This document shows, one piece after another, positions 1,094 to 26,779 of a stretch of 37,621 bases of DNA. Where the stretch lies: NCBI GenBank assembly GCA_947591245.1, contig CANQCY010000019.1:1-37621 (forward strand), written 5' to 3'. Below the pieces are notes generated by a model that was given only the letters and a program-made list of their open reading frames with translations, ran no database searches and was not told where the DNA came from. Source of the stretch: an uncultured Lachnospiraceae bacterium (GTDB taxonomy: Bacteria > Bacillota > Clostridia > Lachnospirales > Lachnospiraceae). Within the stretch, counting starts at the first letter, position 1, and every line of letters begins with the position of its first letter. Position numbers and translations under genes: made by a program.

Positions 1094-1945
1094 ATGAATA
1101 CGTTTAATCGATACCATCCGGCCGCCATACTTTTGTATTTTACGGCGGCGGTCGCCGTAAATATATTGTTTTTTGATCCGGTTATTTTGTGCATTTCTTT
1201 TGTCAGCCAGGGCGTTTTTTATCTGTATATCAAAGGGGTGCGGACGGGAATTTTATTTGTCGGGAAATGCCTGCTATTTGCGGTTTTCTGCCTGTTTGCA
1301 AATACTCTTGTAAATCATCGGGGAGCCAGCGCGCTTATTTTTATTGGAGGTCTGCCGATCACGGCGGAATCGGCTTTTTACGGGCTGCTTACGGGGCTGC
1401 TTTTGACGGATTCTGTTTTGGCGTTCGGCTGTTATCATTCCATTATGACGTCGGAGAAACTCATGTGCCTGACCGGCAACTTTTTTCCGTCATTTTCCCT
1501 CGTATTTTCAATGGCGCTCGGACTTGTTCCGAAAATGAAACGGGATTACGGAAAATTAAAAGAATCGCAGCCGCCGGCGAAGGGTGTCAAACTGCAGTCC
1601 GGGATGCTGTCGGCGCTGGTCGGTTTTTCTCTGGAGGACTCGCTTGAGATGGGAATTTCCATGAGATACCGCGGGTATGGAAGCGGTAGGAGGACGAGTA
1701 TTTACAGCAAAAAATTCGGCTGGCGTGACGGCGTGATGGCGGGGGCGGTTGTTTTGGCGGCGGCGTCGGGAATTGCCTGTTATGTATGGTCAGGCGCGGG
1801 GGTGGACGTGTTTCCGTATATCCAATTCAGGTATAATAGAGCCGGAGCGGCGGCTTATGCGTTATTTGCCATATTGTTTAATATTCCGATGGCGGTCAAT
1901 GCGAGGGAGGAAATCAAATGGAACCGTATTGTTTCAAAAATATAA
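1094..1945 (+). CDS. ecfT: ECF transporter transmembrane component EcfT
   Basis: A 283-residue membrane protein starting at ATG 1094; a longer reading frame upstream only overlaps the previous gene. Several hydrophobic segments occur in the first 140 residues, followed by a cytoplasmic helical region with SMRYRGYGSGRR, matching the Arg-rich coupling motif (A-R-G) of EcfT proteins that contacts the ATPases. A final pair of hydrophobic segments ends the protein. EcfT couples ATP hydrolysis to the substrate-binding S component in energy-coupling-factor importers. It overlaps the ATPase gene by 28 bases, which indicates translational coupling. Confidence 0.88.
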   Translation: MNTFNRYHPAAILLYFTAAVAVNILFFDPVILCISFVSQGVFYLYIKGVRTGILFVGKCLLFAVFCLFANTLVNHRGASALIFIGGLPITAESAFYGLLTGLLLTDSVLAFGCYHSIMTSEKLMCLTGNFFPSFSLVFSMALGLVPKMKRDYGKLKESQPPAKGVKLQSGMLSALVGFSLEDSLEMGISMRYRGYGSGRRTSIYSKKFGWRDGVMAGAVVLAAASGIACYVWSGAGVDVFPYIQFRYNRAGAAAYALFAILFNIPMAVNAREEIKWNRIVSKI

Positions 1946-3423
1946 CATATACATATCCGGGGCAGGAAAAACCGGCTCTTTCAGATATTTCCTTCACGGT
2001 TGAGAGGGGGGAATTTATCATTCTGTGCGGCGCATCCGGTTCAGGGAAAACGACGCTGCTTAAACGGTTAAAGGAAAGCAATCCGGAATTTGGGTTTGTG
2101 ATGCAGAATCCGGAGACGCAGATCGTCACAGACCAGGTTTGCCATGAGCTGGCGTTTGGCATGGAGAGCATGGGCGTTCCGACGGAGAGGATGTGGCGCG
2201 CGATCGCAGAAACAGCGACTTATTTTGGAATGGAAGACTGGATGGAGCGGGATACGAGGCAGCTGTCCGGGGGAGAGATGCAGTTAGTCAATCTGGCGTC
2301 CGTCCTAGTCATGAATCCGGACGTGCTTCTGCTGGATGAACCGACTGCCCAGCTGGATCCGATGGCGGCGACGGAGTTTATTGAAGTGGTGAAACGGCTG
2401 AACGCGCAGATGGGCATCACGGTTATTATGATTGAGCAGAGGCTTGAAGAAGCGCTGGCGGCCTGCGACCGCATGCTTGTGCTCCATGATGGGCGCATGG
2501 CGGCGTATGGCAGTGTGGCGGATGTGTATGCAAAAATTTGCCGGTCAGAGCTTTCAGCGCAATATTTTTCCTACATGCCCGCTTATGTGCGCCTGTATGC
2601 GAGGATGAACAGGGACGGGGATTCGGGAACCGATTCGGACGAAAACTGTCCGCAGAGCATCAAGGAATGCCGGAAATGGTTTTATGAAAATGATGTCGCG
2701 CTTCCGGTCCGGGAAACGTCTGTGAAACAGCGTGAGGGAGAATATTCGATTGTATGCGGCAATGTTTTCTTCCGGTATGAGCGTACGGGCGAAGACGTAC
2801 TAAAAGGAGTCCATTACCGCATTTGCCCGGGGCGCATTTACGGGATCGCCGGAGGAAACGGCGGCGGAAAGTCTACTTTTTTGAAACTTCTTACCGGTGC
2901 GAAACGCCCATACCACGGAAAAATAAATGTATCGGGAAAGACGGCGTATATGCCTCAGGAACCGAGATACCTGTTTATTCAGGATACGATCGGCGATATT
3001 CTCACAGATCCAAGGGCGGTTGAGCGGTTTGGGATGGACGGTTTTTTGGATCGCCATCCGTATGATGTGAGCGGCGGTCAGATGCAGCGCCTGGCGATGG
3101 CATATCTGTATGAACAGGAGGCGGAGATCTATTTGTTCGACGAACCGACAAAGGGGCTGGATCCTGATTGGAAACGCGTATTCGGCGAGTGGCTGGAGGA
3201 GCTGGCGGCGGCGGGTAAGACGGTTCTTATTGTGACCCATGATGTGGAATTTGCGGCGAATTACTGTGAGTGGATGTCCATGTGTTTTCATGCGGGCCTG
3301 TCGGAGCCGGAGCCGACGCCTGAATTTTTCCGGGGACATTATTTTTATACGACGGCGTTTCATAAAATCGTCAGAGACCGCTATCCGTACGCCGTTTCAG
3401 AGAGGAGTCTGCATGAAGAGTAA
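1918..3423 (+). CDS. ecfA: Fused double ATPase of the ECF transporter (EcfA-EcfA')
   Basis: The 501-residue protein carries two complete ABC ATPase domains in tandem, where many operons encode two separate EcfA proteins. Domain 1 has Walker A GASGSGKTT (about residue 37), signature LSGGEMQL and Walker B VLLLDEPTAQLD. Domain 2 has Walker A GGNGGGKST (about residue 315), signature VSGGQMQRLAM and Walker B IYLFDEPTKGLD. Both have intact catalytic glutamates after Walker B. It powers substrate uptake with EcfT (upstream, overlapping) and the S component (downstream, overlapping by 11 bases). The start ATG lies in the 3' end of ecfT after a GAGGGAGG site. Confidence 0.9.
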   Translation: MEPYCFKNITYTYPGQEKPALSDISFTVERGEFIILCGASGSGKTTLLKRLKESNPEFGFVMQNPETQIVTDQVCHELAFGMESMGVPTERMWRAIAETATYFGMEDWMERDTRQLSGGEMQLVNLASVLVMNPDVLLLDEPTAQLDPMAATEFIEVVKRLNAQMGITVIMIEQRLEEALAACDRMLVLHDGRMAAYGSVADVYAKICRSELSAQYFSYMPAYVRLYARMNRDGDSGTDSDENCPQSIKECRKWFYENDVALPVRETSVKQREGEYSIVCGNVFFRYERTGEDVLKGVHYRICPGRIYGIAGGNGGGKSTFLKLLTGAKRPYHGKINVSGKTAYMPQEPRYLFIQDTIGDILTDPRAVERFGMDGFLDRHPYDVSGGQMQRLAMAYLYEQEAEIYLFDEPTKGLDPDWKRVFGEWLEELAAAGKTVLIVTHDVEFAANYCEWMSMCFHAGLSEPEPTPEFFRGHYFYTTAFHKIVRDRYPYAVSERSLHEE

Positions 3424-11856: not shown

Positions 11857-11944
11857 TTTGGCTACAGGACAAAGCGTGGTTTGATAGCTTGATGATAAAG
11901 ATATCCTTTTTAACAGATGGACGCAAATTTATACCACAAGTATA

Positions 11945-11973
11945 ATGACAACTAAAGATTTTCATGTTATGAT
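11945..11973 (+). promoter_or_regulatory. Promoter of the tRNA-rtcB island
   Basis: ATGACA (11945-11950) and TATGAT (11968-11973) are separated by 17 bases; each matches the consensus at five of six positions. Transcription from about 11980 would give a leader of roughly 215 bases before the terminator at 12194. Confidence 0.6.
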
Positions 11974-12025
11974 ACGATATAGAAAAAAGAAACAGGGCAA
12001 TGAATATGTCCGGAAAGGAAAAATC

Positions 12026-12160
12026 ATGAGATTCATTACAACTATAAGCAAACTTCATAATGAACGCCATGAGGCGCTGCCTAAAGCAGATAAGCAGGGC
12101 TTTGATTTGATGTGCTCGTTACGGATAAGCATAGGTTGTAATCGAAATGTATTGATATAG
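12026..12160 (+). CDS. Putative 44-residue leader peptide dense in Lys, His and Glu codons
   Basis: The ORF starts at ATG 12026 after CGGAAAGGAA and ends with TAG at 12158-12160. A nine-residue ORF (12000-12029) ends on it with an ATGA overlap. No family is recognised. Residues 9-23 contain Lys (AAA, AAA, AAG), His (CAT, CAT) and Glu (GAA, GAG), seven of fifteen codons, and these are the amino acids of the four tRNA sequences in the operon. The 3' part of the ORF includes the strand of an alternative stem that competes with the terminator. This fits a regulatory leader peptide whose translation senses charged tRNA supply. It could still be a chance ORF; translation is not shown. Confidence 0.4.
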   Translation: MRFITTISKLHNERHEALPKADKQGFDLMCSLRISIGCNRNVLI

Positions 12161-12211
12161 CACGGGATTACCCGGAGCATAATGGAATTTACGAACCGCT
12201 TATCTTGTAAC
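12118..12211 (+). promoter_or_regulatory. Candidate antiterminator stem competing with the terminator
   Basis: GTTAC-G-GATAAGC (12118-12130) is complementary to GCTTATC-TT-GTAAC (12198-12211): 12 base pairs with one small internal loop. The downstream strand includes most of the 5' arm of the terminator, so the two structures exclude each other. A second GATAAGC copy at 12089-12095 could pair with the same arm over 8 bp. Confidence 0.5.
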
Positions 12212-12229
12212 AGGGATAGGCGGTTTTTT
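12194..12229 (+). terminator. Intrinsic terminator (attenuator) just before tRNA-Lys
   Basis: AACCGCTTATC and GATAGGCGGTT form an 11-bp stem with one G-T pair and a 10-base loop, followed by TTTTTTA. Only 3 bases separate the T tract from the tRNA 5' end. A transcript starting at the upstream promoter must therefore read through this element to make the tRNA and rtcB. Confidence 0.8.
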
Positions 12230-12232
12230 AAT

Positions 12233-12305
12233 GCCCCATTAGCTCAGTTGGCAGAGCAACCGGCTTTTAATCGGCAGGTCGAGAGTTCAAGTCTCTCATG
12301 GGGCA
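12233..12305 (+). tRNA. tRNA-Lys (anticodon UUU)
   Basis: The 73-base sequence folds into a cloverleaf: acceptor GCCCCAT/ATGGGGC, D arm GCTC/GAGC, anticodon loop CTTTTAA, T arm GAGAG-TTCAAGT-CTCTC. CCA is not encoded. The outermost anticodon-stem pair (27-43) is A-C and the innermost is G-U, so the anticodon stem is weaker than usual. It sits between an intrinsic terminator and the rtcB ribosome binding site, so it is probably cut from the same transcript as the ligase. Confidence 0.88.
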
Positions 12306-12334
12306 TTACCGGCAAGGAGAAGGAGGGAAGAAAA

Positions 12335-13543
12335 ATGTTTGATATAAAGGGAAAGGTAAATACGGCAATCTGTTATGCGAAGGTTGTAGAGGACGAAGCG
12401 ATAGAACAGATTCGCAGAATGTGCGACTATGAGATGACGGCAGGTTCTAAAATCAGAATTATGCCTGATGTACACGCCGGCAAGGGCTGTACCATAGGCA
12501 CAACTATGACTATCACGGATAAGGCGGTACCGAATGTTGTCGGTGTGGATATCGGATGCGGAATGTACACGGTGAATCTCGGTAAGACTGATATTGATTT
12601 TGAGAAATTGGATGAAGCTGCTCATTTTGTTCCTTCTGGGATGAATGTATGGGAAGGCAGACAGGAACGGTTTGATCTCACTGATCTTAGATGTTACAGA
12701 GAACTCAAGGATACGAAAAGACTTGAAAGGTCTCTGGGGACGCTTGGAGGTGGGAATCACTTCATAGAGATAGACGAAGCGGCAGACGGTGCGAAATATC
12801 TTGTCATCCATTCCGGGAGCCGTAATCTAGGGAAACAGGTAGCAGAATTATATCAGAAACTTGCGGTTAATCTGGATCGCGGTTACGGTGAATATTTTGA
12901 AAAGCGTGACGAGATAATCAGGACATACAAAGAGCAGGGAAGGAGAAAAGAAATACAGGACGCATTGAAGAAGCTCCACGCACAAGCGTATGAAAGCGAA
13001 CCAAGCATGCCGGAGGATTTGTGCTATCTCTCAGGCAAGTATCTTGAGGACTATCTTCACGATGTTGTTATCTGTCAGGCTTTTGCGAGAAGAAACAGAG
13101 AGAAGATGGCGGAGGTCATTCTTGAAAGATGTGGGATATCAGCTGGAGAGGCTTTTCATACTATTCACAATTATATCGACGCCGATGAAATGATACTTAG
13201 AAAAGGTGCAATAGCTGCCCATAAGGGGGAAAAAGCGCTTATTCCTATCAACATGAGGGATGGCAGTGTGCTTGCAGTAGGAAAAGGTAATCCTGAGTGG
13301 AACTATTCTGCTCCTCATGGCGCCGGAAGGATCATGTCCAGACGCAAGGCAAAGGAAAGTTTGGATATGGATGAGTACAAAAAGACAATGGAGGGTATTT
13401 ATACCACTTCCATTAACGAGAAAACATTGGATGAGGCTCCGATGGCATACAAATCACTTGATGATATTATTGATGTTATCAAGGAATCGGTAGATGTTAT
13501 CGACATCATGAAACCTATTTATAATTTTAAGGCGTCTGACTGA
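12335..13543 (+). CDS. rtcB: RNA ligase RtcB
   Basis: A 402-residue RtcB. ATG 12335 follows a strong AGGAGGGAAG site; the reading frame further upstream runs through the tRNA and is not coding. Family motifs are all present: PDVHAGKGCTIG (44-55), VGVDIGCGM with metal-binding Cys75, GGGNHF around 138-143, HSGSR at 159, AHKGE, and PHGAGRIMSRR, where His328 is the predicted GMP-accepting histidine. RtcB joins RNA ends carrying 2',3'-cyclic or 3'-phosphate to 5'-OH ends, the products of many tRNA-cleaving toxins. It is flanked by a tRNA on one side and an XRE regulator plus tRNAs on the other, which points to a tRNA repair role. Its codon use is AT-richer than in neighbouring rlmD, consistent with transfer. 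Confidence 0.95.
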   Translation: MFDIKGKVNTAICYAKVVEDEAIEQIRRMCDYEMTAGSKIRIMPDVHAGKGCTIGTTMTITDKAVPNVVGVDIGCGMYTVNLGKTDIDFEKLDEAAHFVPSGMNVWEGRQERFDLTDLRCYRELKDTKRLERSLGTLGGGNHFIEIDEAADGAKYLVIHSGSRNLGKQVAELYQKLAVNLDRGYGEYFEKRDEIIRTYKEQGRRKEIQDALKKLHAQAYESEPSMPEDLCYLSGKYLEDYLHDVVICQAFARRNREKMAEVILERCGISAGEAFHTIHNYIDADEMILRKGAIAAHKGEKALIPINMRDGSVLAVGKGNPEWNYSAPHGAGRIMSRRKAKESLDMDEYKKTMEGIYTTSINEKTLDEAPMAYKSLDDIIDVIKESVDVIDIMKPIYNFKASD

Positions 13544-13582
13544 AACGACCTGTTTCGGTCAGAGCCGGAACAGGAGGAAGAA

Positions 13583-13843
13583 ATGGTACAGAATATGCCT
13601 GCTATAGATATGGCGGGAACAGGGAAGAGAATATCAGCATTAAGGCAAGCCAAGGGTCTGTCTGTGAGAGACTTGCAGGATATTTTCGGATTTACAACAC
13701 CGCAGGCGATTTATAAGTGGCAACACGGATCAGCTATGCCGACCATAGATAATTTGGTGGTGCTTTCTGTGGTGTTTGGTGTAAAGGTGGATGATATATT
13801 GGTAGTGGATATGACAGACAATGTATCTATGAGTAGTGCATAA
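13583..13843 (+). CDS. XRE-family helix-turn-helix regulator of the tRNA-rtcB island
   Basis: An 86-residue protein consisting almost only of a helix-turn-helix domain: RISALRQAKGLSVRDLQDIFG, then the recognition-helix region TPQAIYKWQHGSAMPTIDNL. It starts at ATG after ACAGGAGGAAG, 39 bases behind rtcB. Small XRE proteins without extra domains usually act as local repressors or activators, and here the natural target would be the island promoter at 11945. No ligand domain is visible, so how it would sense damage is unknown. Confidence 0.82.
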   Translation: MVQNMPAIDMAGTGKRISALRQAKGLSVRDLQDIFGFTTPQAIYKWQHGSAMPTIDNLVVLSVVFGVKVDDILVVDMTDNVSMSSA

Positions 13844-13849
13844 AGAAAA

Positions 13850-13871
13850 GCAGATGTCTTTGGACATCTGC
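13850..13871 (+). repeat. Perfect 9-bp hairpin between the XRE gene and tRNA-Glu
   Basis: GCAGATGTC and GACATCTGC flank the loop TTTG. No T tract follows, and tRNA-Glu begins 3 bases later, so this is probably an RNA stem that separates mRNA from tRNA or protects the mRNA 3' end after tRNA processing. Confidence 0.55.
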
Positions 13872-13874
13872 CAC

Positions 13875-13947
13875 GGTCCCCTAGTCTAAAGGTCAGGACA
13901 CAGCCCTTTCAAGGCTGAGATGCACGGTTCAAGTCCGGCGGGGATCA
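13875..13947 (+). tRNA. tRNA-Glu (anticodon UUC)
   Basis: This 73-base cloverleaf has acceptor GGTCCCC/GGGGATC, D arm GTCT/GGAC, a perfect anticodon stem CAGCC/GGCTG with loop CTTTCAA, and T loop TTCAAGT. The two outer T-stem pairs (49-65 C-C and 50-64 A-G) do not pair, which is unusual and may reflect decay or divergence. CCA is not encoded. It follows a perfect hairpin in the 3' region of the rtcB-XRE transcript. Confidence 0.8.
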
Positions 13948-13951
13948 TTAT

Positions 13952-14024
13952 GGCTCCTTAGCCTAAAGGTCAGGACGCCAGCCTCTCAAGCTGGAAATGT
14001 CGGGTTCAAGTCCCGCAGGAGCTA
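13952..14024 (+). tRNA. tRNA-Glu (anticodon CUC)
   Basis: The 73-base cloverleaf has acceptor GGCTCCT/AGGAGCT, a perfect anticodon stem CCAGC/GCTGG with loop CTCTCAA, and T arm TCGGG/CCCGC with only the outer pair mismatched. CCA is not encoded. It lies 4 bases after tRNA-Glu(UUC), so both are likely cut from one precursor. It would read GAG codons. Confidence 0.82.
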
Positions 14025-14026
14025 CT

Positions 14027-14073
14027 GTGACCGTAGTATAACGGTTCGTCCGGCAGATTGTGGATCTGCAGGC
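14027..14073 (+). pseudogene. 5' part of a tRNA-His (anticodon GUG), truncated
   Basis: GTGACCGTAGTATAACGG, a perfect anticodon stem GCAGA/TCTGC and the loop TTGTGGA with anticodon GTG match the first two thirds of a tRNA-His. After the start of the variable region the T arm and 3' acceptor strand are missing, and the sequence continues as macro-domain coding sequence. The cloverleaf cannot close, so this is a broken tRNA gene. Confidence 0.7.
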
Positions 14074-14326
14074 CAATCAAATGCTTGCATCCTGTTACCG
14101 GACTTCTTTGGCAATAGCAAAGGACAGCGGAATTAGAACCATTGCTTTTCCGTCAATTTCTACTGGGGTATATGGTTACCCGGTGGAAAAGGCAGCTAAG
14201 ATTGCAGTAGGGACGGTATCGCAATTTCTTGAGCAGTATCCGGATGTTTTTGATATAGTGGAATGGATGTTGTTTGATGATAGGACGCTGAAGGCTTATG
14301 AGGATGAAGTGGATAAGCTTTATTAA
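14074..14326 (+). pseudogene. 3' end of a macro-domain gene, 5' truncated
   Basis: About 84 residues align in pattern with the C-terminal half of macro-domain proteins: LASCYRTSLAIAKDSGIRTIAFPSISTG, where FPSISTGVYGYP is the typical ADP-ribose-binding loop, then a helix and the end of the domain (about residues 20-88 of the open frame). The N-terminal half with its NAAN motif is absent; instead the frame enters a tRNA-His fragment. Only a GTG inside the tRNA anticodon would serve as start, so this is unlikely to be a working gene. Macro domains hydrolyse ADP-ribose derivatives, including ADP-ribose-1''-phosphate from tRNA repair by Tpt1, and that would fit an RNA-repair operon. The deletion junction lies near 14074. 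Confidence 0.75.
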
Positions 14327-14422
14327 GTGTCGAATAATTGAGGTATGAGATGTTAAACAGAAACCGCATGCCTCTTGAGCAACACCCAGAGCTAGAAGAA
14401 AGAATCTAAGTAAACATGTGAT

Positions 14423-14460
14423 AAAACGGTACTTTTCGGTGATGGAGAGTACCGTTTTTT
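14423..14460 (+). terminator. Intrinsic terminator at the end of the tRNA-rtcB operon
   Basis: AAAACGGTACT and AGTACCGTTTT form an 11-bp perfect stem with a 14-base loop and a run of T. It follows the macro-domain remnant by about 97 bases and probably ends the island transcript. Confidence 0.8.
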
Positions 14461-17704: not shown

Positions 17705-20700
17705 ATGCAGATTAGGAAAATGCGGAAACGCGTGATGGCAGCAGTGCTGGCGGCGGCGATGCTGATGAGTGGGAACATTCAGGCAGCTGCCGAGACGGTC
17801 AGCCAGGAAAAAGCTGCAGAGCGGCAGAAAGAAGCCGCTTTACAGGAAAAGCTGAAAGAGACGATCCGCGACAGCGACGCGATGGCGGCGCAGTACCCAA
17901 ACGGGCTTTTCAATTTCCTCGGGACGCAGTATGAGACGAAAGAGGGAAAAGAATACATCGAGATCGCCGTCATCCGCCAGGGAGGCACGCAGGGCGAGGC
18001 AAGCGTCCGCTTCCGGGCAGTCGACATTACGGCCTCGTATGGGGACGACTACGAGATCTACACATCAAAGAACAAGCGAAGCGGTGAGAAAATCGCAAAA
18101 GGGGAAGACGCCGCCCCGCTGATTCAGAACGCATACGATGAGGAGACGGATTTAAGCGCAGCAGATCCGGAAAAGGTCGTCGAGCAGGCAGTAGAAAAAG
18201 AGAGCGAAAAAACAGAGCAGAAAGCAGAGCGTAAAGCTCAGAAAAATGCGAAAAATGCTCAGAAGAAAGAGGATGGCGAAGAGTCAGGGATCTCCGGCGG
18301 GCTGGCCGGGAGCACGGTGCAGACGGCGGAAGAGAGTGCCGGGACCGTCGAGCCCCAGGAAGCCATCGAAGAGGTGAGCGCAAGCGGGCTGAAAGCGGCC
18401 AAGAGCGCCGCATCCGGCGCTGAGTCCGACCGAAAGGACTGGCGCGCCGTAGCAGCCGGCAGCGAACAGGAGAAAGAGGCCAGGGAGCAGTACGACGCAT
18501 TCCTTTCCAAAGCGGGCGGAAGCGAGACAGAGCTTACGTTCGAGGATGGGGAGTACATCAAGTATCTGTACCTCTTCCCGAAAGACGACAAAGACGCAGA
18601 GGCAGAAGAGCAGCTCATTATGGCGCTCCTCCAGAAGGACGGGAATCCGGAAGTAGGCGGCTCGTACTCTGCTTACGTCAACATCAAGGACAACGACGGC
18701 AAGGAAAAGACGAAGTATGAGTTTGCCGATTCGGAAGTGACCGCCGACAAGGATAAGGTCAGCGTCACGATCCGGCGCACGTCCGGCACGGGCTACAACG
18801 ACAGCGTCTATGTGGGGACGGCGGAAGGCACGGCAAATGCGGGCGCCGACTACAAAGCCGGTTTAAAGACGCTGAATTTCTTTGCGGGGCAGACGGAGCA
18901 GAAAGTCACGATAGACATTCTGGACAATGAGTACCGCGAGAAAGACCGCGACTTCTATCTGATCCTCTCGATTGACGGGGAGAAGTATGAGGACGCCAGA
19001 TGCCATGTGACCATCAAGGGCAATGGCAAGGGGACGATGAAGGCCCAGGCGACGGCAAACGACGCCGAGAAGATTACGCCGAACGGCTCCGACAATGGAA
19101 CCGTGGGCACATGGAAAATCATGGCGTCCGACTTCGTGAGCCGGGATAACTACAGCAGGTCTGGCGATACGCTGAGCGTAGACCATACCGGCAACACGAA
19201 GGGCACCTGGGTAGGCAATAACTTTACTACATACGGCGTAAACAGCATCACTTTCCAGGTGAAAAACGAAGGAAAGGGAAAGACCACGACGTGGAAGGAG
19301 CAGAAGTCCAAAATCAACCTGAGGTGGAAATACCGCTGGAAATTCCGCGAGTACTGGACGGAGACGCATACTTCCCACGAGGATAATTTTTCCTTTACCT
19401 TTGCGAGGAGTACCTATAGCGGTCCGATCTCGAGCTGGAGCAGCAAAATAATCGGCTGGACCCCATCGAGATGGTCGGGCGGCATCAACATGGATTCGAA
19501 AGCAAACAGCGGAAACAATGCGAAGCCGAGCATAAAAAATATCGTGCTGAATCTGCAGCCGTATACGTACCGCATCATGGGACCAAGCCAGAAATTTTAC
19601 GCTACGACGTACACGCTTGCAAACGATAAGGCGGACACGCTGACAGCCGGCGACAAGAAGGACATCACGCCTTCGCTCGAGCTGGAAAGCCTCGGGTCGC
19701 GCGTAAAAAATACAAAGAGCACAAATAGGCTGTACCGTTCCGATGCGCTGACATTCAAGCTGAACAACTGGGACAGCAGCGCGCTGACCTTCAACGGCAT
19801 CGAGGCTTCTGCGGACGGGACTACTTGGACAAAAGTCAGCGGCAACCTGAACCTGGTTATGAATGCCGACTTCTTCAAGAAGCTGCACCTTGACGCAGCG
19901 AATGTGGCCGGCTATCCTTTGTACACCAATATCATATTCCGCCCGTCGTTCAGCTACAAGAACGCGAAGGTAAAATTCACGCTGGAAAATGAGAACAAGG
20001 GGACGTACACGAACCTGAGCAAGAACTTCACTACAGGCGGGAACCCGCAGCTGCACGTAGGGGACACCATTAAGAATATCCAGGGTAAATCCGCAAATGC
20101 AGCGGCTTATCAGCCGAGCTTCGCCGCAAAGCAGGGGGCCAGTGAGTCGGCCGCTTCCAAGTCGGCGTACAAGTCGGCGGGAACCGGCGCGCTGACATTG
20201 GATTCTTCAAACAGCCAGGGCGCGGTGGCAGTGCTGAAAATACCGGACCTCTATACGGAGGTGCAGCTGGCATATGCAAATCCGAGCGTAACCGTACAGG
20301 CGGACCCGAATACGTACCGCAACACAATCGCCAACGAGGTGATTTCCGTAGACGGGACGGAGTACAAATGCGACGATGCAGACCAGCTGAATAAGCTGCA
20401 TGAGGTGATGGCGAAGAAATACGCGGACGATACGGACGCGAAGATCAAGCTGACCTTTGAATATAACCACAATCCAGATTATATGAACGGCAAAGTGACG
20501 AGCGACCCGGTATTCGGGACGCCGAAGTCGGCTGTGCTGAATATTTACCAGGACAACGGAACGCCGTCAAAGACCTATACGGAGGAGCCATCCGTCACAA
20601 AGAGGGATGGGAAGGACGTTTACAGCTTCACGTATGAGGGCAATTGGAAAGAGATGGGATTCGTGGCAGGCAGTACGGCCACGGTGACAGTCAACGGGCA

Positions 20701-23700
20701 GAACGGCATGACGAGCCAGGAGACGGAGATCGATTTCCTTGACCAGTCGGCGTCATATATCATGGCGGTGGACCCGAACGGCGACGTCATGAAGGACAAA
20801 GACGGGAACCAGGCCGGTTCGGTTCGGACCAAGCTTGCATTCCTCAACATGAATCCGCTGGTGAACTACAACTACATCGCGTTTACATCCCCGAATTTTG
20901 TCGGCCAGTGGGCGGATTATTCGCTGGATGTGAACAACGACGGAAATATTTCCAATTCAAAGGATGACAACGAGGTGGCGGCTGCCCAGAAACGGCTGGA
21001 AGAGCTCGGGCAGGATGCGGGCCTTGCAAATCAGAACCAGGAAGTTTATATCGGCAATAATTTCGTATATCAGCCGAGCCTGTACGCGCAGAGCAAGATT
21101 TATTATGATCTGATCAAGCGCAATACGTCCACGGGGAACAACCGCGTCGGCCTGAGCCTGACGGAGCGCAAGGCGACGGTGCTTTCGCCCGGCGTGTACA
21201 AAGAGACGCCGCTCCTTGGCGCAGTCGTGACGATGCCCGGAGGCGATTTGGCGGAAGAAGGCGAAAATGGCAATTATTACGATATCGGCTCGTATGAGAA
21301 GGGCCGGAACTACTTGGCGGACGTAACGTACCAGGGCATCCATTTCCAGGCGAGGTGCGTCGGGACCAGGACGATCAGCCAGGAGATCAATACGTCGGAT
21401 ATCATGTACCCGATTGACTTCAACGTCAAACAGGATGGAAAGGATATCGGCGTAAAATCCAATGGAAATACGCCTTATGTAGACGTCGAGGATAAGGCGG
21501 GGTCAAACCACACCTTTACGTTCGGCTTCCGGTCCTCCGTCGGGATCAAGCCGAATAAGGCAAAAGTGACGCTCTACGATAAAGATAAGCGCGTGCTTTA
21601 TACAGAGACGCTTACGCGGAAGGATGTAAATACTCCGTTCGAGGTGAGCATCGACCTGGCTAAGGCGGGCGTGAAGTCCGGAACGAACATGACGATCCAG
21701 GGAATTTACAATGACGGAACGACGGATCAGGTATATCCGGAAGTAGATACCGGAATTATTTTTTCAAGGAAACTGACGGCGCTGAGCGTGGCGACGAGCT
21801 TCAAGAGCCCGTTCAATAAGACGCTGAAAATGTTTAACAAGATTGGAACCCAGTTCGACCTTCCTCTGGACTATGACCTTGGGTCCCTTGGAACCAAGCC
21901 GGTGACATACCGCGACGACGACGGCGCCCTTCACAAGGTGATACAGATCGCATTTGGTTACAATACGGAAGTCAAGGAAGAGCTCGAGAGAATCCAGACA
22001 GAGGAGATGGCGGAGAATAAAGGAAACGCCATGTCCGGCCGGACCGCTGTGACGAAATATATCGACAACATCATGGAAGGCGGCGTGATCGGCGACGAGG
22101 ATGACGAAGAGGAAGAAGGAGAAGAAGGGGAAGAAAGCCCAGGCAGCGGAAGCGGCCCAGGCAGCGGAAGCGGCTCAGGCAGCGGCAGCGCAGGCAAGGC
22201 AGACAACATAGACCAGGCAAAGCAGAATGCGCAGAATGCCCAGGATCCGAATGCGGCGCAGTCCGACAACATGGGAAATACGACATTTGACTTCGGATTC
22301 AGCGTGGCAGTCATCCTGACCGTTGAGACGGGGCCGGATACCGACCCGGATACGAGCGGCGCGAACTTCTTCGATTCCCTGATGCTTGTGGCAGCCGGAG
22401 AGGCGAGGGTTGAAAGCTCGTTCGTCTACACGACGCCAATCGGCATCGACATAATCGTCGAAGTGAAAGCGGGAGGAAACGCCGTAGCGGCATTTGCAGC
22501 CGGTTCATCCACGAAAAACCCGTACGGCGACGTATTCAACCTGAATAAAGACGGCGACGAAAAAGCGTTTACCCTGACAAAAGACGATTTTGACATATAT
22601 ACCAAATTCCTTCTGGCTCCGACCCTTACCCTGGGAGCGGGCGTCGGGCTCGGCGGCGGAAAGATTTTCAAAGTAGTGGTATCCGGTACGGCGGACTTTG
22701 ACTTCAAATTCACCGCGCCAATCATCGGGACAGATACGGTTTCACAGGGAAGCGGCGAGGTGACGCTTGGCGCGGATCTGGAACTGAAGATTCTGTTCAT
22801 CAAGAAAAAGTGGAACCTGTACAAATCGGAAACGATGGATCTCTTCAGCTACGGCGCACAGGGAATCGACGAGATGCTTTCCGATTTCCAGGAAAATTAC
22901 CTGTACGACGCAATCAAGGCGGAGGATCTGGAGACGGTATCCAGGGATTACCTGAAGAACCGGAGCGAGTGGCAGCCGTATGATATTTCGGCCCAGAAGG
23001 TAGAAGCGGGTGCGGAAAAGATACTGCAAGAGGGCGTTTATCCATATCCGGATGCGAAGATTCTGGATCTGTCAGACGGAAAGATACTGGCGGTATTTTT
23101 GGATGACCCGGGCACAGACAAGGGCTATGATACGGCAAATAACTCCGTAGTTATGTACAGCTACTCGTCAGACGAAGGCGCGACATGGTCGGAGCCGGCG
23201 ATCATTGACGATGACAAGACAAGGGACGAAGCGCCTTATGTATATCAGGTGACGGATGAGAAAGCCCTGGTCGTATGGTCGGACGCTTCGGAGGCGCTGA
23301 AGGAAGTAGATAGCGGCGAGGCATTGAAAGGAAACCTGGGCAAGATGGACATCACCGGCGCTTGGTTTGACTGCCAGGCTGGGAAGATGGGAGACGGCTT
23401 CCAGATCGCCCAGACGAAGACGAGTTTTGAAGACGGCTCGGAGCGCACGGATTACTACGACGCTGCGCCGATGATCAGCTATGACGAAGAGACAAAACGC
23501 CTGATGGTATATTATACGGCGAGCGATTATGAGGGCAGCGAGGTGACGGACGGCACGGGCAGCACGGAAGGAACAGGCAGCGAAAGCGATCTGGAAGATC
23601 CGGAGCAGGCAAAAGAAGCCGTGACGTACGGAGACATCATCAATGGTTATAGCGTGACGGCGTTTACCACAGCAGAGATGGATGCAGACGGGGAGTTTGG

Positions 23701-26700
23701 CTCCTTTGAGGCTCCGGAGTTTGTAGACCTGAGCATTCCGTCCATCAAGGAGGAAAGCGGTTCAGAGGGCTCCGGCATGATCGACCCGAAAGTGATCGAC
23801 GGGGATGTAATCAGTTACAACGGCCTGTCGCTCCACGCTTACACGATCGATGAAGACCAGAGCGACAAGACGCTTGGCGACCGCGAGCTGTTCATGCAGA
23901 TTTACAACTACTCAGGCAATGAAGGCAAGGGCGAGTTCCATTATCCGATCCAGATCACGAGCGACGGCGCCGAGGACGCCAATCCTCAGTTCGTCCGCTG
24001 CCGGAACATGACTTACCTGTACTGGATCAGCGGAGGCGATGTGAAGTATATCAATATCACGTCTCTGGTGAAAGAGATGCAGGCGGGCGACCTGACGCCG
24101 GATGATACGGAGCACGACGGGTTCCTGAGGCTGAAGACAGTCACGGATGAAGAGAATGAACAGTCCGGCATCTATTATGTAGAAGGCGACCCGTCTTATA
24201 CGGCTATCGCCCACAAGGTCGAGAAGGATGAAAATGGAGAGGTCACGGCGGAACAGCCGATCACCGATTATGACATCCAGTCCAATGGCAAGACGATGTA
24301 TATGCTCTGGACAGATCTTGTGACAGAGACGAAAGACCCGAATAAATCGGGTGCGGAAAATGTGATTAAGGAGACTCAGGTATTCGGCGCTTACTGCGAG
24401 CCGGCGATGGAGCTGGAGGAGACGGAAGAGCCGTACGCCTTTGAGGACAGCGATTATATCACATACCAGTTCGCAGACGGAAAAGACAAGACGACATATC
24501 CGGAATCCTATACGATTACGAAGCTTCCAGAAGATACAGAACTGACGGAAGCGGAAAAAGCGGAGCTGGAAGAGAAAGTCGGACAGAAGACAACGATTGA
24601 CTACACGGCCGAAGCGGACTTAAACGGAGAGACCGGCAAAGTAAAAGCGGGCGACCCGGCAGTCCGGAAAGTACAGAAGATCAAGACGGACGGCGGCAGC
24701 GGCTGGTCCGATCCGATTCAGATCACGAGGGAGACAGGAAACGAGTACAACTACGACGACCTGACATTCCGCGTAACAGACCAAAATGTTGTTCAGGCGA
24801 TGTTCTCCCGCGGGCCGCAGGTTCTGAACGAGGACGGCGCATTCGAGGTAGATGAAGCCAACCGCATGCTGGCTGTTCAGAATTTCACGATCACGAGCAC
24901 GCTGGAGAAGGGCGACATGACCTACCGAAGGATCAGCGGCGAGGAAGAAGGCGCTGAAGCCGGGGCAGAGGACGCAGCGGAGAAGAGCGGCGAGACATAC
25001 TGCTATCCGGGAGATACGGCAGAGTTTTCCGTCAGCCTGACAAACGATGGATTTAAGCCATTAGAGGATATCCAGTACCGCACGTACATGACGAAAGGCG
25101 GCGAGGAAGTAGAAGGGTCTGCTTCCGAGTGGCAGCCGGTAGCGCCGGATGTCTACCAGGAGGCAGTGCAGACGCTGGATGTATACACAGACGACGCAGA
25201 GGCAAATACGCCGGCGGCAGGCAATGTCGAGAAGGGCAATGAGGTTGAGGTCAACCGCCTTCTGGGAGGAAAGACCGTCACCTTGTCCGGAAGGGCAGCG
25301 CTTGGCGATGAAATCGAGGGAACCGTCTTTGTCATCGAACTGAAGACAAAGGAAGGCGGCGAGGATAAGATCGAGAAGATCGAAAAAGCCCTCGTAGTAG
25401 AGCCGAATGTTACGGTTTCCGCCGGACAGACAGAGCTGCTGGATGAGAACACGGCGAGCGTTGTCGTAAATGTGGCCAACTCAGGCAACAAAGAGTACAC
25501 AGGCGACGTCAAGCTGCTTAACGGCGATAAAGAGCTGGCAGTGAAGAAGGATGTGACAGCTGCGCCGGGCGAGAGCGTTGACTACGTATTGGAAGCAGAC
25601 ATAAGCGGATGCAAATTCGGCGACGTCACAACGAATGCAGACGGCAGCAAGCAAGACGCCCTGTCCTTGGATCTGGTTTATGGAAATGCGGACGGGAAAG
25701 TCGAGAATAAGGCGGAAGTAGTGAGAAAGACGTCCACCGAAGGCGGTTACGCAACGGATGCGATCCGCTCAATCGACATCGGCGCTTCGGATGCGGAAGA
25801 TGCAGAAGCAACGCCGGAGAAGGTCGGAAGCGAATATGAGGTTCCGGCAAACAAACCGGTATCCTTGAAGAGCCTGTTTGACATCGACGAGAACAGCGAG
25901 GCAGCGAAGAAACTGGCAGCGAGCGGATACACGGCAGACGCCCAGATGATTACCGAGTGGACGTCATCGGATCCGGATGTCGCATTTGTAAGCGGCAACG
26001 GCTTGCTGGTTCCGATGAAAGAAGGAACGGCGGAGATTCAGGCAGTCGTCTATCCGGGACAGCGCGACCAGATCAGCGACGCGGCGGAGCAGAGCTCCAA
26101 TTCGGCGGGCGGTTATGTAACGTCGAACGGACGGTACCGTGTTCCGGAAAGCCTCATCACGACGAAGAGCGTGAAAGTGAAGGTAGGGGCGCCGGAAGAA
26201 GAGGATCCGTCTCCGACAGTGACGCCGACCGACAATCCGAGCCAGACGCCGGGAAGCACAGCAGCGCCGGGAGGAGACGTGCCAGGCAGTTCGACAGCGC
26301 CGGGAAGTACAGCAGCGCCGTCAGCCGTTCCGGGCTCAGCCGCTCCGGCAAGCACGGCAGCGCCGGGCACAGAGGCGTCAAAGAAAACCGTGACCAAAGG
26401 CGGAGTCAAGTATGAGGTGAAGAAATCCGCGGGAGGCGTCGTCGTGACAGGCGCGTCAAAGAAGACGCTGAAGAAGGTTGTAATTCCTGCTACCGTAAAG
26501 ATCGGCGGCAAGAAATACAAGGTAACAGAAATCAAGGCAAATGCGTTTAAGAACCAGAAGAACCTGAAGAACGTCATCATTGGGAAAAATGTGACGAAGA
26601 TCGGCGCAAAGGCATTCTACAATGACAAGAAGCTGGCAAGTATCCGCTTCAAGGGCAAGAAGGCGCCGTCAATCGGCAAAAAGGCGTTTGCCGGAATCGC

Positions 26701-26779
26701 CAAGAAGGCGGTATTCCGAGTTCCAAAGGGAACGAAAAAGAAGTACGCAAAGAAACTAAAGAACCAGAAAATCAAATAA
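17705..26779 (+). CDS. Giant secreted protein with Calx-beta, BNR-like, Big2-like and BspA-type LRR regions
   Basis: A 3024-residue protein starting at ATG 17705 after GAAGGAGGAA. Residues 1-28 form a Sec signal peptide (basic start, MAAVLAAAMLMSG, probable cleavage near AAA). One Calx-beta-like fold appears split: its first half lies at about 82-118 and its second at about 285-345, with a charged Lys/Glu/Ala-rich insert between. A second, intact Calx-beta domain spans about 336-440. A dockerin-like calcium loop (DVNNDGNISNSKDD) is near 1075. An acidic then Gly-Ser linker is at 1460-1500. BNR/sialidase-like propeller strands (SSDEGATWSEP) occur near 1790-1945. A Big2-like segment lies near 2745, a Pro/Ser/Thr linker near 2830, and BspA-type leucine-rich repeats at 2895-3024. 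No LPXTG or SLH anchor is seen. It is probably an adhesin-like surface protein; the partner is unknown. Confidence 0.85.
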   Translation: MQIRKMRKRVMAAVLAAAMLMSGNIQAAAETVSQEKAAERQKEAALQEKLKETIRDSDAMAAQYPNGLFNFLGTQYETKEGKEYIEIAVIRQGGTQGEASVRFRAVDITASYGDDYEIYTSKNKRSGEKIAKGEDAAPLIQNAYDEETDLSAADPEKVVEQAVEKESEKTEQKAERKAQKNAKNAQKKEDGEESGISGGLAGSTVQTAEESAGTVEPQEAIEEVSASGLKAAKSAASGAESDRKDWRAVAAGSEQEKEAREQYDAFLSKAGGSETELTFEDGEYIKYLYLFPKDDKDAEAEEQLIMALLQKDGNPEVGGSYSAYVNIKDNDGKEKTKYEFADSEVTADKDKVSVTIRRTSGTGYNDSVYVGTAEGTANAGADYKAGLKTLNFFAGQTEQKVTIDILDNEYREKDRDFYLILSIDGEKYEDARCHVTIKGNGKGTMKAQATANDAEKITPNGSDNGTVGTWKIMASDFVSRDNYSRSGDTLSVDHTGNTKGTWVGNNFTTYGVNSITFQVKNEGKGKTTTWKEQKSKINLRWKYRWKFREYWTETHTSHEDNFSFTFARSTYSGPISSWSSKIIGWTPSRWSGGINMDSKANSGNNAKPSIKNIVLNLQPYTYRIMGPSQKFYATTYTLANDKADTLTAGDKKDITPSLELESLGSRVKNTKSTNRLYRSDALTFKLNNWDSSALTFNGIEASADGTTWTKVSGNLNLVMNADFFKKLHLDAANVAGYPLYTNIIFRPSFSYKNAKVKFTLENENKGTYTNLSKNFTTGGNPQLHVGDTIKNIQGKSANAAAYQPSFAAKQGASESAASKSAYKSAGTGALTLDSSNSQGAVAVLKIPDLYTEVQLAYANPSVTVQADPNTYRNTIANEVISVDGTEYKCDDADQLNKLHEVMAKKYADDTDAKIKLTFEYNHNPDYMNGKVTSDPVFGTPKSAVLNIYQDNGTPSKTYTEEPSVTKRDGKDVYSFTYEGNWKEMGFVAGSTATVTVNGQNGMTSQETEIDFLDQSASYIMAVDPNGDVMKDKDGNQAGSVRTKLAFLNMNPLVNYNYIAFTSPNFVGQWADYSLDVNNDGNISNSKDDNEVAAAQKRLEELGQDAGLANQNQEVYIGNNFVYQPSLYAQSKIYYDLIKRNTSTGNNRVGLSLTERKATVLSPGVYKETPLLGAVVTMPGGDLAEEGENGNYYDIGSYEKGRNYLADVTYQGIHFQARCVGTRTISQEINTSDIMYPIDFNVKQDGKDIGVKSNGNTPYVDVEDKAGSNHTFTFGFRSSVGIKPNKAKVTLYDKDKRVLYTETLTRKDVNTPFEVSIDLAKAGVKSGTNMTIQGIYNDGTTDQVYPEVDTGIIFSRKLTALSVATSFKSPFNKTLKMFNKIGTQFDLPLDYDLGSLGTKPVTYRDDDGALHKVIQIAFGYNTEVKEELERIQTEEMAENKGNAMSGRTAVTKYIDNIMEGGVIGDEDDEEEEGEEGEESPGSGSGPGSGSGSGSGSAGKADNIDQAKQNAQNAQDPNAAQSDNMGNTTFDFGFSVAVILTVETGPDTDPDTSGANFFDSLMLVAAGEARVESSFVYTTPIGIDIIVEVKAGGNAVAAFAAGSSTKNPYGDVFNLNKDGDEKAFTLTKDDFDIYTKFLLAPTLTLGAGVGLGGGKIFKVVVSGTADFDFKFTAPIIGTDTVSQGSGEVTLGADLELKILFIKKKWNLYKSETMDLFSYGAQGIDEMLSDFQENYLYDAIKAEDLETVSRDYLKNRSEWQPYDISAQKVEAGAEKILQEGVYPYPDAKILDLSDGKILAVFLDDPGTDKGYDTANNSVVMYSYSSDEGATWSEPAIIDDDKTRDEAPYVYQVTDEKALVVWSDASEALKEVDSGEALKGNLGKMDITGAWFDCQAGKMGDGFQIAQTKTSFEDGSERTDYYDAAPMISYDEETKRLMVYYTASDYEGSEVTDGTGSTEGTGSESDLEDPEQAKEAVTYGDIINGYSVTAFTTAEMDADGEFGSFEAPEFVDLSIPSIKEESGSEGSGMIDPKVIDGDVISYNGLSLHAYTIDEDQSDKTLGDRELFMQIYNYSGNEGKGEFHYPIQITSDGAEDANPQFVRCRNMTYLYWISGGDVKYINITSLVKEMQAGDLTPDDTEHDGFLRLKTVTDEENEQSGIYYVEGDPSYTAIAHKVEKDENGEVTAEQPITDYDIQSNGKTMYMLWTDLVTETKDPNKSGAENVIKETQVFGAYCEPAMELEETEEPYAFEDSDYITYQFADGKDKTTYPESYTITKLPEDTELTEAEKAELEEKVGQKTTIDYTAEADLNGETGKVKAGDPAVRKVQKIKTDGGSGWSDPIQITRETGNEYNYDDLTFRVTDQNVVQAMFSRGPQVLNEDGAFEVDEANRMLAVQNFTITSTLEKGDMTYRRISGEEEGAEAGAEDAAEKSGETYCYPGDTAEFSVSLTNDGFKPLEDIQYRTYMTKGGEEVEGSASEWQPVAPDVYQEAVQTLDVYTDDAEANTPAAGNVEKGNEVEVNRLLGGKTVTLSGRAALGDEIEGTVFVIELKTKEGGEDKIEKIEKALVVEPNVTVSAGQTELLDENTASVVVNVANSGNKEYTGDVKLLNGDKELAVKKDVTAAPGESVDYVLEADISGCKFGDVTTNADGSKQDALSLDLVYGNADGKVENKAEVVRKTSTEGGYATDAIRSIDIGASDAEDAEATPEKVGSEYEVPANKPVSLKSLFDIDENSEAAKKLAASGYTADAQMITEWTSSDPDVAFVSGNGLLVPMKEGTAEIQAVVYPGQRDQISDAAEQSSNSAGGYVTSNGRYRVPESLITTKSVKVKVGAPEEEDPSPTVTPTDNPSQTPGSTAAPGGDVPGSSTAPGSTAAPSAVPGSAAPASTAAPGTEASKKTVTKGGVKYEVKKSAGGVVVTGASKKTLKKVVIPATVKIGGKKYKVTEIKANAFKNQKNLKNVIIGKNVTKIGAKAFYNDKKLASIRFKGKKAPSIGKKAFAGIAKKAVFRVPKGTKKKYAKKLKNQKIK

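Follow-up and report, generated by a model that had tools for sequence, protein, structure and literature searches.

Attenuators of the trp and his type combine a leader peptide, alternative hairpins and a terminator. How tRNA damage is sensed in bacteria lacking RtcR, and what purpose is served by extra chromosomal tRNA genes lying beside RtcB, are to our knowledge open questions. In Salmonella, the rsr-yrlBA-rtcBA operon is under RtcR, which responds to broken tRNAs by switching rtcBA on (Hughes et al. 2020, PMC7790460). In Anabaena, a ribbon-helix-helix (RHH) repressor, TrcR, silences a spare tRNA operon, trn, together with rtcB, both being released by translation stress (PMC10272220). Phage tRNAs are described as evading tRNA-targeting defences through anticodon-loop changes (PMC10264068). 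Here we analysed 37,621 nucleotides of an uncultured Lachnospiraceae bacterium (assembly GCA_947591245.1, contig CANQCY010000019.1, positions 1 to 37,621; the whole stretch is called the window below), in which an rtcB gene, a gene for an XRE-family regulator and several tRNA genes stand behind a leader that is very likely an attenuator. On balance we lean towards reading the locus as a two-lock stress operon, in which repression by the XRE protein and the attenuator would both hold back tRNAs and RtcB until ribosomes stall. The features on which the argument rests are the following, numbered along the window.

11929-11945, strand not assigned: inverted repeat TTATAC-N5-GTATAA, a putative XRE operator read from the sequence, overlapping the -35 box
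11945-11973, + strand: putative promoter (-35 ATGACA, 17-nt spacer, -10 TATGAT), found by eye, with similar blocks in relatives
12012-12019, + strand: putative ribosome-binding site GGAAAGGA of the leader open reading frame (ORF)
12026-12160, + strand: leader ORF of 44 codons, matched in relatives by a peptide hidden Markov model (HMM)
12071-12103, + strand: hairpin P1 within the leader ORF, a possible pause hairpin, from the computed fold and pair changes in relatives
12117-12131, + strand: antiterminator strand within the ORF, complementary to the 5' arm and loop of the terminator (RNAduplex -15.2 kcal/mol in the window)
12193-12229, + strand: intrinsic terminator, a hairpin and T run directly 5' of tRNA-Lys, read from the sequence and from pairing in relatives
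12232-12306, + strand: tRNA-Lys(UUU), called by ARAGORN and Rfam (66.7 bits)
12335-13543, + strand: rtcB, predicted RNA ligase of 402 aa (PF01139, E 2.3e-56)
13583-13843, + strand: XRE-family regulator of 86 aa (PF01381, E 1.2e-08)
13875-13947, + strand: tRNA-Glu(UUC), anticodon loop CUUUCAA, called by ARAGORN and Rfam
13952-14025, + strand: tRNA-Glu(CUC), anticodon loop CUCUCAA, called by ARAGORN and Rfam

The rtcB gene, the XRE gene and the three intact tRNA genes of the window, each called by both programs, are thus co-directional on the + strand between 12232 and 14025, and the leader region before them (12026-12229) is made of the short ORF, its internal hairpin, the antiterminator strand within the ORF and the terminator. 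A sequence-only reading of this DNA had proposed a single direction for tRNAs, rtcB, XRE gene and a macro-domain remnant further downstream, a layout that ARAGORN, Rfam and Pfam bear out; of the four tRNA sequences that it listed three are intact, and the fourth, a tRNA-His, is broken and called by neither tool. The leader and terminator had been noticed as well and left uninterpreted; they look like a conserved attenuator that would supply a sensing mechanism. Aligned to solved RtcB structures, the window protein matches them in the MPD.H, DI.CG, G.GNHF and HGAGR..SR blocks and, judged by its domain and these conserved blocks, belongs to the RtcB RNA ligase family.

Like Salmonella rtcBA, the locus is an RtcB operon, the Salmonella one being switched on by broken tRNAs and accompanied by tRNA-mimicking Y RNAs (PMC7790460). 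Unlike that system, which relies on the CARF-domain activator RtcR and on RtcA, it has an XRE gene, an attenuator and real tRNA genes. The genome of the window (2.07 Mb, 55 contigs, 85% complete) gave no hit to RtcA or to RtcR, and an RtcR-type operon was rejected on this ground. As in the Anabaena TrcR system, spare tRNAs and rtcB would be under common control, freed there by translation stress; in Anabaena, however, an RHH repressor acts on separate loci and the main text of the report contains neither 'leader' nor 'attenuation', whereas an XRE gene, one operon and an RNA switch are found here. The present system appears to reach an Anabaena-like end by means of an attenuator and an XRE gene within one operon. 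Among the matches listed from the openly licensed PubMed Central (PMC) literature, no title or opening of an abstract describes such a leader before rtcB or tRNA genes.

Among the sources of the rtcB loci were 200 genomes of the family, 64 of which had an RtcB match, with 40 matching places fetched with wider flanks, and a scan of genome contigs that kept the best 80 of 240 loci, mostly titled Lachnospiraceae, many from gut or rumen. The rtcB-XRE-tRNA arrangement recurs across other genomes in differing gene contexts, which argues that the arrangement in the window is more than chance; the sequence-only reading had staked its case on a conserved rtcB-tRNA neighbourhood in relatives, and there is one. 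Relatives share one layout upstream of rtcB-xre: a palindrome overlaps the promoter, then come a ribosome site and a short ORF, and a terminator follows. Of 130 distinct rtcB loci, 64 have the leader ORF according to the peptide HMM, and in all 64 a terminator arm comes after it: the terminator script scored a hit in 55 leaders, one of them (L131) at the wrong hairpin, and in the other nine the arm is visible in the sequence, that of L143 being interrupted by Ns. As in trp/his attenuators, a short candidate leader ORF thus precedes the structural genes, although the pattern used to choose the seed leaders required a ribosome site and restricted ORF length, and both features are in part a product of that choice. 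The codon and structure tests covered 59 of the 64 leaders (all except L116, L143, L163, L171 and L175). In the conserved set the ORF has about 40-55 codons; it starts with ATG in 58/59 leaders, and the other two reading frames are open in none of the 59, the own frame being open by construction.

The terminator and the antiterminator are predicted to be mutually exclusive, and the latter overlaps the ORF, as in trp/his attenuators. Matched leader-terminator duplexes average -12.1 kcal/mol vs -10.7 kcal/mol for mismatched ones, and none of 5000 permutations in this swap test was as good; the best antiterminator site begins at ORF nt 82-102 in 53 of the 64 leaders. In a sequence-only alignment of 54 of the 59 leaders (without L092, L101, L138, L182 and L189), changes on both sides occur in 62 cells for P1 and the terminator together, where shuffles give 22.7. 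For P1, 68.9% of cells are paired and all 5 pairs counted changed on both sides; for the terminator, 96.1% of cells are paired and 5 of 11 pairs changed on both sides. The antiterminator is paired in 78.9% of cells vs 28.5-48.6% when slid. A conserved TG lies about 11 nt 3' of P1, which we take to recall the pause hairpins of known attenuators.

Fold simulations were run on the 54 of 59 leaders with a best antiterminator site within 60 nt of the stop codon (in L142 and L144 of this set the site is misplaced at the ORF end). With no ribosome, at least 6 antiterminator pairs form in 39% of leaders; with the first 30-96 nt covered the figure is 81-96%, and with 108 nt or more covered it is 2%. 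In the unmasked RNA the expected number of antiterminator pairs is 5.2 with the native 5' segment vs 9.4 with swapped and 10.1 with shuffled segments, the native segment giving fewer pairs than shuffled ones in 42/54 leaders (Wilcoxon p 2e-7). This suggests that the 5' part of the ORF competes and so reduces antiterminator pairing in the unmasked leader.

Which elements belong together was assessed from the distribution of the leader. Among the 76 rtcB loci with at least 700 nt upstream, an XRE relative follows rtcB in 50, of which 48 have the HMM leader, and a leader was counted at 4 of the 26 loci without XRE. The motif TATAATGACA (one optional base allowed) occurs in 40 of 52 loci counted with the leader and in 1 of 24 counted without it, and this one, L173, does carry a leader. 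A covariance model of the leader gave 64 matches in 59 of 397 genomes of Lachnospiraceae; an order sample contributed matches from 8 of its 295 genomes and a class sample from 2 of its 291, the window's genome being counted in each; all leader matches of these two samples fall within the same family, the number of sampled genomes outside it not being listed. Twenty of the 64 matches adjoin rtcB genes already found in the rtcB sampling. Of the other 44, 40 were fetched and four weak ones left out: 16 have rtcB, which brings the matches with rtcB close by to at least 36 of the 64; at 19 XRE is present and rtcB absent, and in 10 of that group tRNAs lie on the operon strand; one reaches a contig edge after a tRNA-Lys; at one locus (L255) the leader precedes kptA, a second RNA-repair gene; and three, taken up below, stand before other genes. 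Eight further leaders, the order-sample matches other than the window, have at most 75% identity to any model sequence; all eight have an XRE relative within 1.5 kb (44% identity in L285) and seven have tRNAs within 1.5 kb, with rtcB downstream in one and upstream in two. Leader and XRE gene form the usual core, with tRNAs and rtcB as its cargo.

RtcB as the defining core was rejected, and with it the RtcB-centred island of the sequence-only reading, since leader, XRE and tRNAs occur without rtcB. Its idea of a repair-and-replace unit survives in outline, with extra divergent tRNAs and once a leader before kptA, RtcB not being the centre of it. In L284 and L286 rtcB lies directly 5' of the leader, followed by XRE and tRNAs, making cargo possible on either side. 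L204 has 14 tRNA genes upstream and 9 downstream of rtcB (from 1.3 kb before to 2.6 kb after the rtcB start); its leader match is weak only (E 0.019).

ARAGORN finds tRNAs flanking 33 of the 59 leader-bearing loci. Those 5' of rtcB are often Ser, Lys, Trp or Cys, Leu, and those 3' of xre often Arg, Glu, Glu or His, Tyr, Ser; this order recurs, though not at every locus. The window's genome holds further copies of Lys(UUU), Glu(UUC) (two), Glu(CUC) and His, so the cassette tRNAs are extras; with an identity of only 63-69% to the host tRNAs that carry the same amino acid (67% between the two tRNA-Lys(UUU)), they are no recent duplicates. Across loci most cassette tRNA kinds are about 0.76-0.83 alike vs 0.57-0.72 to the host's copies, the host side of this comparison being the window's host only; likeness across loci is lower for Gln(UUG) (0.69) and for Phe and Ile (0.57, two copies each). 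Position 38 is A in 11/11 cassette Glu(CUC) and 18/26 Glu(UUC) vs C38 in the window host, and the window's own tRNA-Glu(UUC) carries A38 where both host copies have C38. Arg(ACG) cassette copies have A37 in 5/5 against G37 in the host, and Lys and Tyr cassette anticodon loops are the same as in the host. The cassette resembles the phage tRNAs of PMC10264068 in its extra tRNAs with altered anticodon loops; it differs in that bacterial genomes carry it and a stress switch presumably controls it.

A selfish or mobile tRNA cassette, in which phage-like tRNAs and XRE spread and the attenuator only limits the cost of expression with no role in host stress, would fit the likeness of most cassette tRNA kinds across loci (about 0.8), the flanks that vary between loci, and a metagenome scaffold filed as phage (putative) that carries leader, rtcB and tRNAs. 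We consider it improbable: every neighbour family other than XRE and the WYL/DUF2828 group is confined to at most 4 of the clustered loci (neighbour families in this clustering were not annotated), the peptide HMM found the leader ORF in none of 18 distinct IMG/VR loci, the plasmid search gave no leader match, and rtcB and, once, kptA as cargo fit repair. A phage origin of the leader region was rejected, as among the 15 matches listed of 134 records only the tRNA-Lys end is covered. The only same-genus genome sampled has rlmD and two genes beyond it in common with the window, and the two sequences part after rlmD; the boundary of an insertion could not be placed.

The codons of the leader bear on what it might sense. 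Four codon windows were compared (2-28, 7-28, 8-20, and 29 onward). In codons 7-28, amino-acid enrichment correlates with cargo-tRNA frequency at r 0.74 against background ORF bodies and 0.58 against ORF N-termini; r is 0.56 for codons 2-28, 0.57 for 8-20 and 0.36, not significant, from codon 29 onward. Synonyms are biased in the same stretch (GAA 0.71 vs 0.51, AAA 0.76 vs 0.49, CGN 0.79 vs 0.53, AGY 0.66 vs 0.36), biases that are significant for several codon classes and vanish or reverse in later leader codons, and the preferred codons fit the cargo tRNAs Glu(UUC), Lys(UUU), Arg(ACG) and Ser(GCU). For leaders that are related and constrained by pairing this match is suggestive of what the leader may sense.

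Conserved architecture, RNA pairings and codon match are supported by the computation, and we propose the following course of events for the two-lock operon. As the first lock, the operon-encoded XRE protein would repress a promoter whose -35 box overlaps the palindrome. Transcripts getting past the promoter would meet the second lock, a ribosome-controlled attenuator: a freely translating ribosome would cover the antiterminator strand, letting the terminator fold and end transcription ahead of the cargo, and one stalled within about the first 28 codons would leave the antiterminator to pair with the 5' arm of the terminator, allowing read-through into the tRNAs and, if present, rtcB. The window's leader excepted, the unoccupied RNA in the majority of relatives tends to hide the antiterminator strand, and the switch would therefore answer to a stalled rather than an absent ribosome. 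Because codons that the cargo tRNAs read are over-represented at codon positions 7-28 of the leader, loss of cargo-type tRNAs, for instance by anticodon cleavage, would trigger release of spare divergent copies and of a sealing ligase. That a shortage of tRNAs is the attenuator's signal we regard as likely, and toxin or phage attack may be what sets it off; a role in defence against anticodon nucleases is plausible, though we hold it with less assurance. Framed as a whole, and with similar reserve, the system might be a closed loop of tRNA homeostasis: a leader peptide written in the codons of vulnerable tRNAs would poll them through stalling and release replacements together with the resealing enzyme, and some of the anticodon loops may resist the nuclease.

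Several observations weigh against this interpretation. At equilibrium the full RNA favours the terminator, and antitermination must therefore be kinetic. In the antiterminator only 4 pairs changed on both sides, no more than in shuffles; the cells changed on both sides number 16 vs 8.7 in shuffles, yet 28 when slid by -1. The window's own leader is without 5' sequestration (10.9 vs 10.2 shuffled) and has an irregular masking profile (0.1 antiterminator pairs at 60 nt masked). Leaders share descent and RNA pairing constrains codons, so that codon and fold statistics are not independent. In codons 7-28, CTN is not favoured among the Leu codons (0.77 vs 0.74); at the amino-acid level, Lys, Arg and His lack a clear enrichment (1.07, 1.06, 0.74), and Phe is enriched (1.43) though rare as cargo. 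No nearby tRNA was found by ARAGORN at 26 of the 59 leader loci, and 9 of the 19 XRE-only leader loci have neither rtcB nor tRNA in the stretch examined. With kptA matches in 65 of 397 genomes of the family, only 1 of the 30 best-matching loci examined, the same L255, has kptA under the leader, and kptA as general cargo is not supported. The same-genus genome gave no leader or rtcB match. The ORF itself has a pN/pS of about 0.6 (15 disjoint pairs), indicating weak coding constraint, and a solid leader match (L261, E 3.2e-11) stands before a GNAT acetyltransferase gene.

The last two points each bear on another explanation. Weak peptide constraint and strong RNA structure within the ORF would suit a protein- or ligand-sensing RNA, for example one binding tRNA fragments, with the ORF incidental. 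Yet ORF start and stop are kept across divergent leaders with the other frames closed in 59/59, and Rfam (E up to 5) gave no credible family besides tRNA in 11857-12334, neither a T-box nor any known leader, the sub-gathering matches being Plastid-ycf2 (on the strand opposite the tRNA) and a snoRNA; we regard such an RNA as very improbable. Loose peptide conservation is, as expected, what fits a leader whose codons and RNA outweigh its product.

The GNAT gene speaks to a general translation-stress attenuator, answering to any stalling (by ribosome-targeting antibiotics or amino-acid starvation), for which tRNA cleavage would be no specific signal and in which tRNAs and RtcB would serve recovery in general. 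A leader match also precedes a GNAT acetyltransferase gene in L276 (E 1.3e-4), and another a Pfam-less gene in L272 (E 4.3e-6); with L261, these perhaps hint at a wider attenuator class. Leader-peptide attenuators have been reported for Gram-positive antibiotic-response genes, and in Anabaena loss of TrcR derepresses the spare tRNA operon, rtcB and GNAT genes, with translation inhibitors relieving repression (PMC10272220). However, codons 7-28 match the cargo tRNAs and later codons do not, and the identified cargo is mostly tRNA and RNA-repair genes; a purely general stress response is therefore unlikely in our view, though it deserves more weight than the selfish cassette. The proposed attenuator of the two-lock operon resembles those of trp and his in its leader peptide, alternative hairpins and terminator, and differs in a cargo that is mostly tRNA and RNA repair rather than amino-acid synthesis and in mixed codons with no single-codon runs.

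Downstream of the intact tRNAs, three further features follow in the same direction.

about 14027-14079, + strand: broken tRNA-His(GUG), the 5' part including the anticodon arm, called by neither ARAGORN nor Rfam
14081-14326, + strand: C-terminal remnant of a macro domain (PF01661 positions 78-118, E 3.9e-13)
about 14424-14460, + strand: terminator-like hairpin and T run 3' of the macro remnant, read from the sequence

A complete tRNA-His(GUG) stands after a Glu tRNA in L141, L142 and L167. The macro domain had been taken for a functional member of the unit; it is found in 1 of 81 rtcB loci, the other 80 having no macro-domain match within 2.5 kb after rtcB, and is incidental (in L089 and L103 relatives occur, but at distances of 6.8 and 7.3 kb). 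Farther along the window, 17705-26779 encodes a 3024-aa protein that matches Calx-beta and BspA-type leucine-rich repeats; after it come genes for a periplasmic-binding protein, for two ABC transporters, of which one has a C39 peptidase domain, and for an MFS transporter.

Other rtcB neighbourhoods of the family depart from this plan. RtcB relatives at about 50% identity and WYL-DUF2828-rtcB operons gave no such leader. A second, leaderless kind of rtcB operon (L093, L108, L112, L114, L115, L123) has two shared upstream genes in 6/6 cases, one representative upstream gene being a WYL match below the Pfam cut-off, and a DUF2828/DUF7788 protein in four. In L061, which is the L113 place as well, a YrlA-like Y RNA at 928-995 (its 45.2 bits fall short of the Rfam gathering score of 69) lies after rtcB-xre and before a 689-aa Pfam-less protein, where other loci have tRNAs. 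In L128 (the same place as L088), a second tRNA-Glu, 3' of tRNA-Glu(ttc), is split by an insert, and the tRNA-His is broken too, at a different point from the window's. L089 has a second rtcB (40% identical) after rtcB-xre, at 1553-3275 relative to the rtcB start, alongside a gene that we presume to be release-factor-like.

For bacteria without RtcR, the leader is a concrete candidate sensor of tRNA damage. Attenuation is known from amino-acid synthesis and from the response to antibiotics; the leader suggests that the tRNA pool itself can be guarded in this way too, and its sequence signature may mark stress-inducible tRNA genes in Lachnospiraceae.

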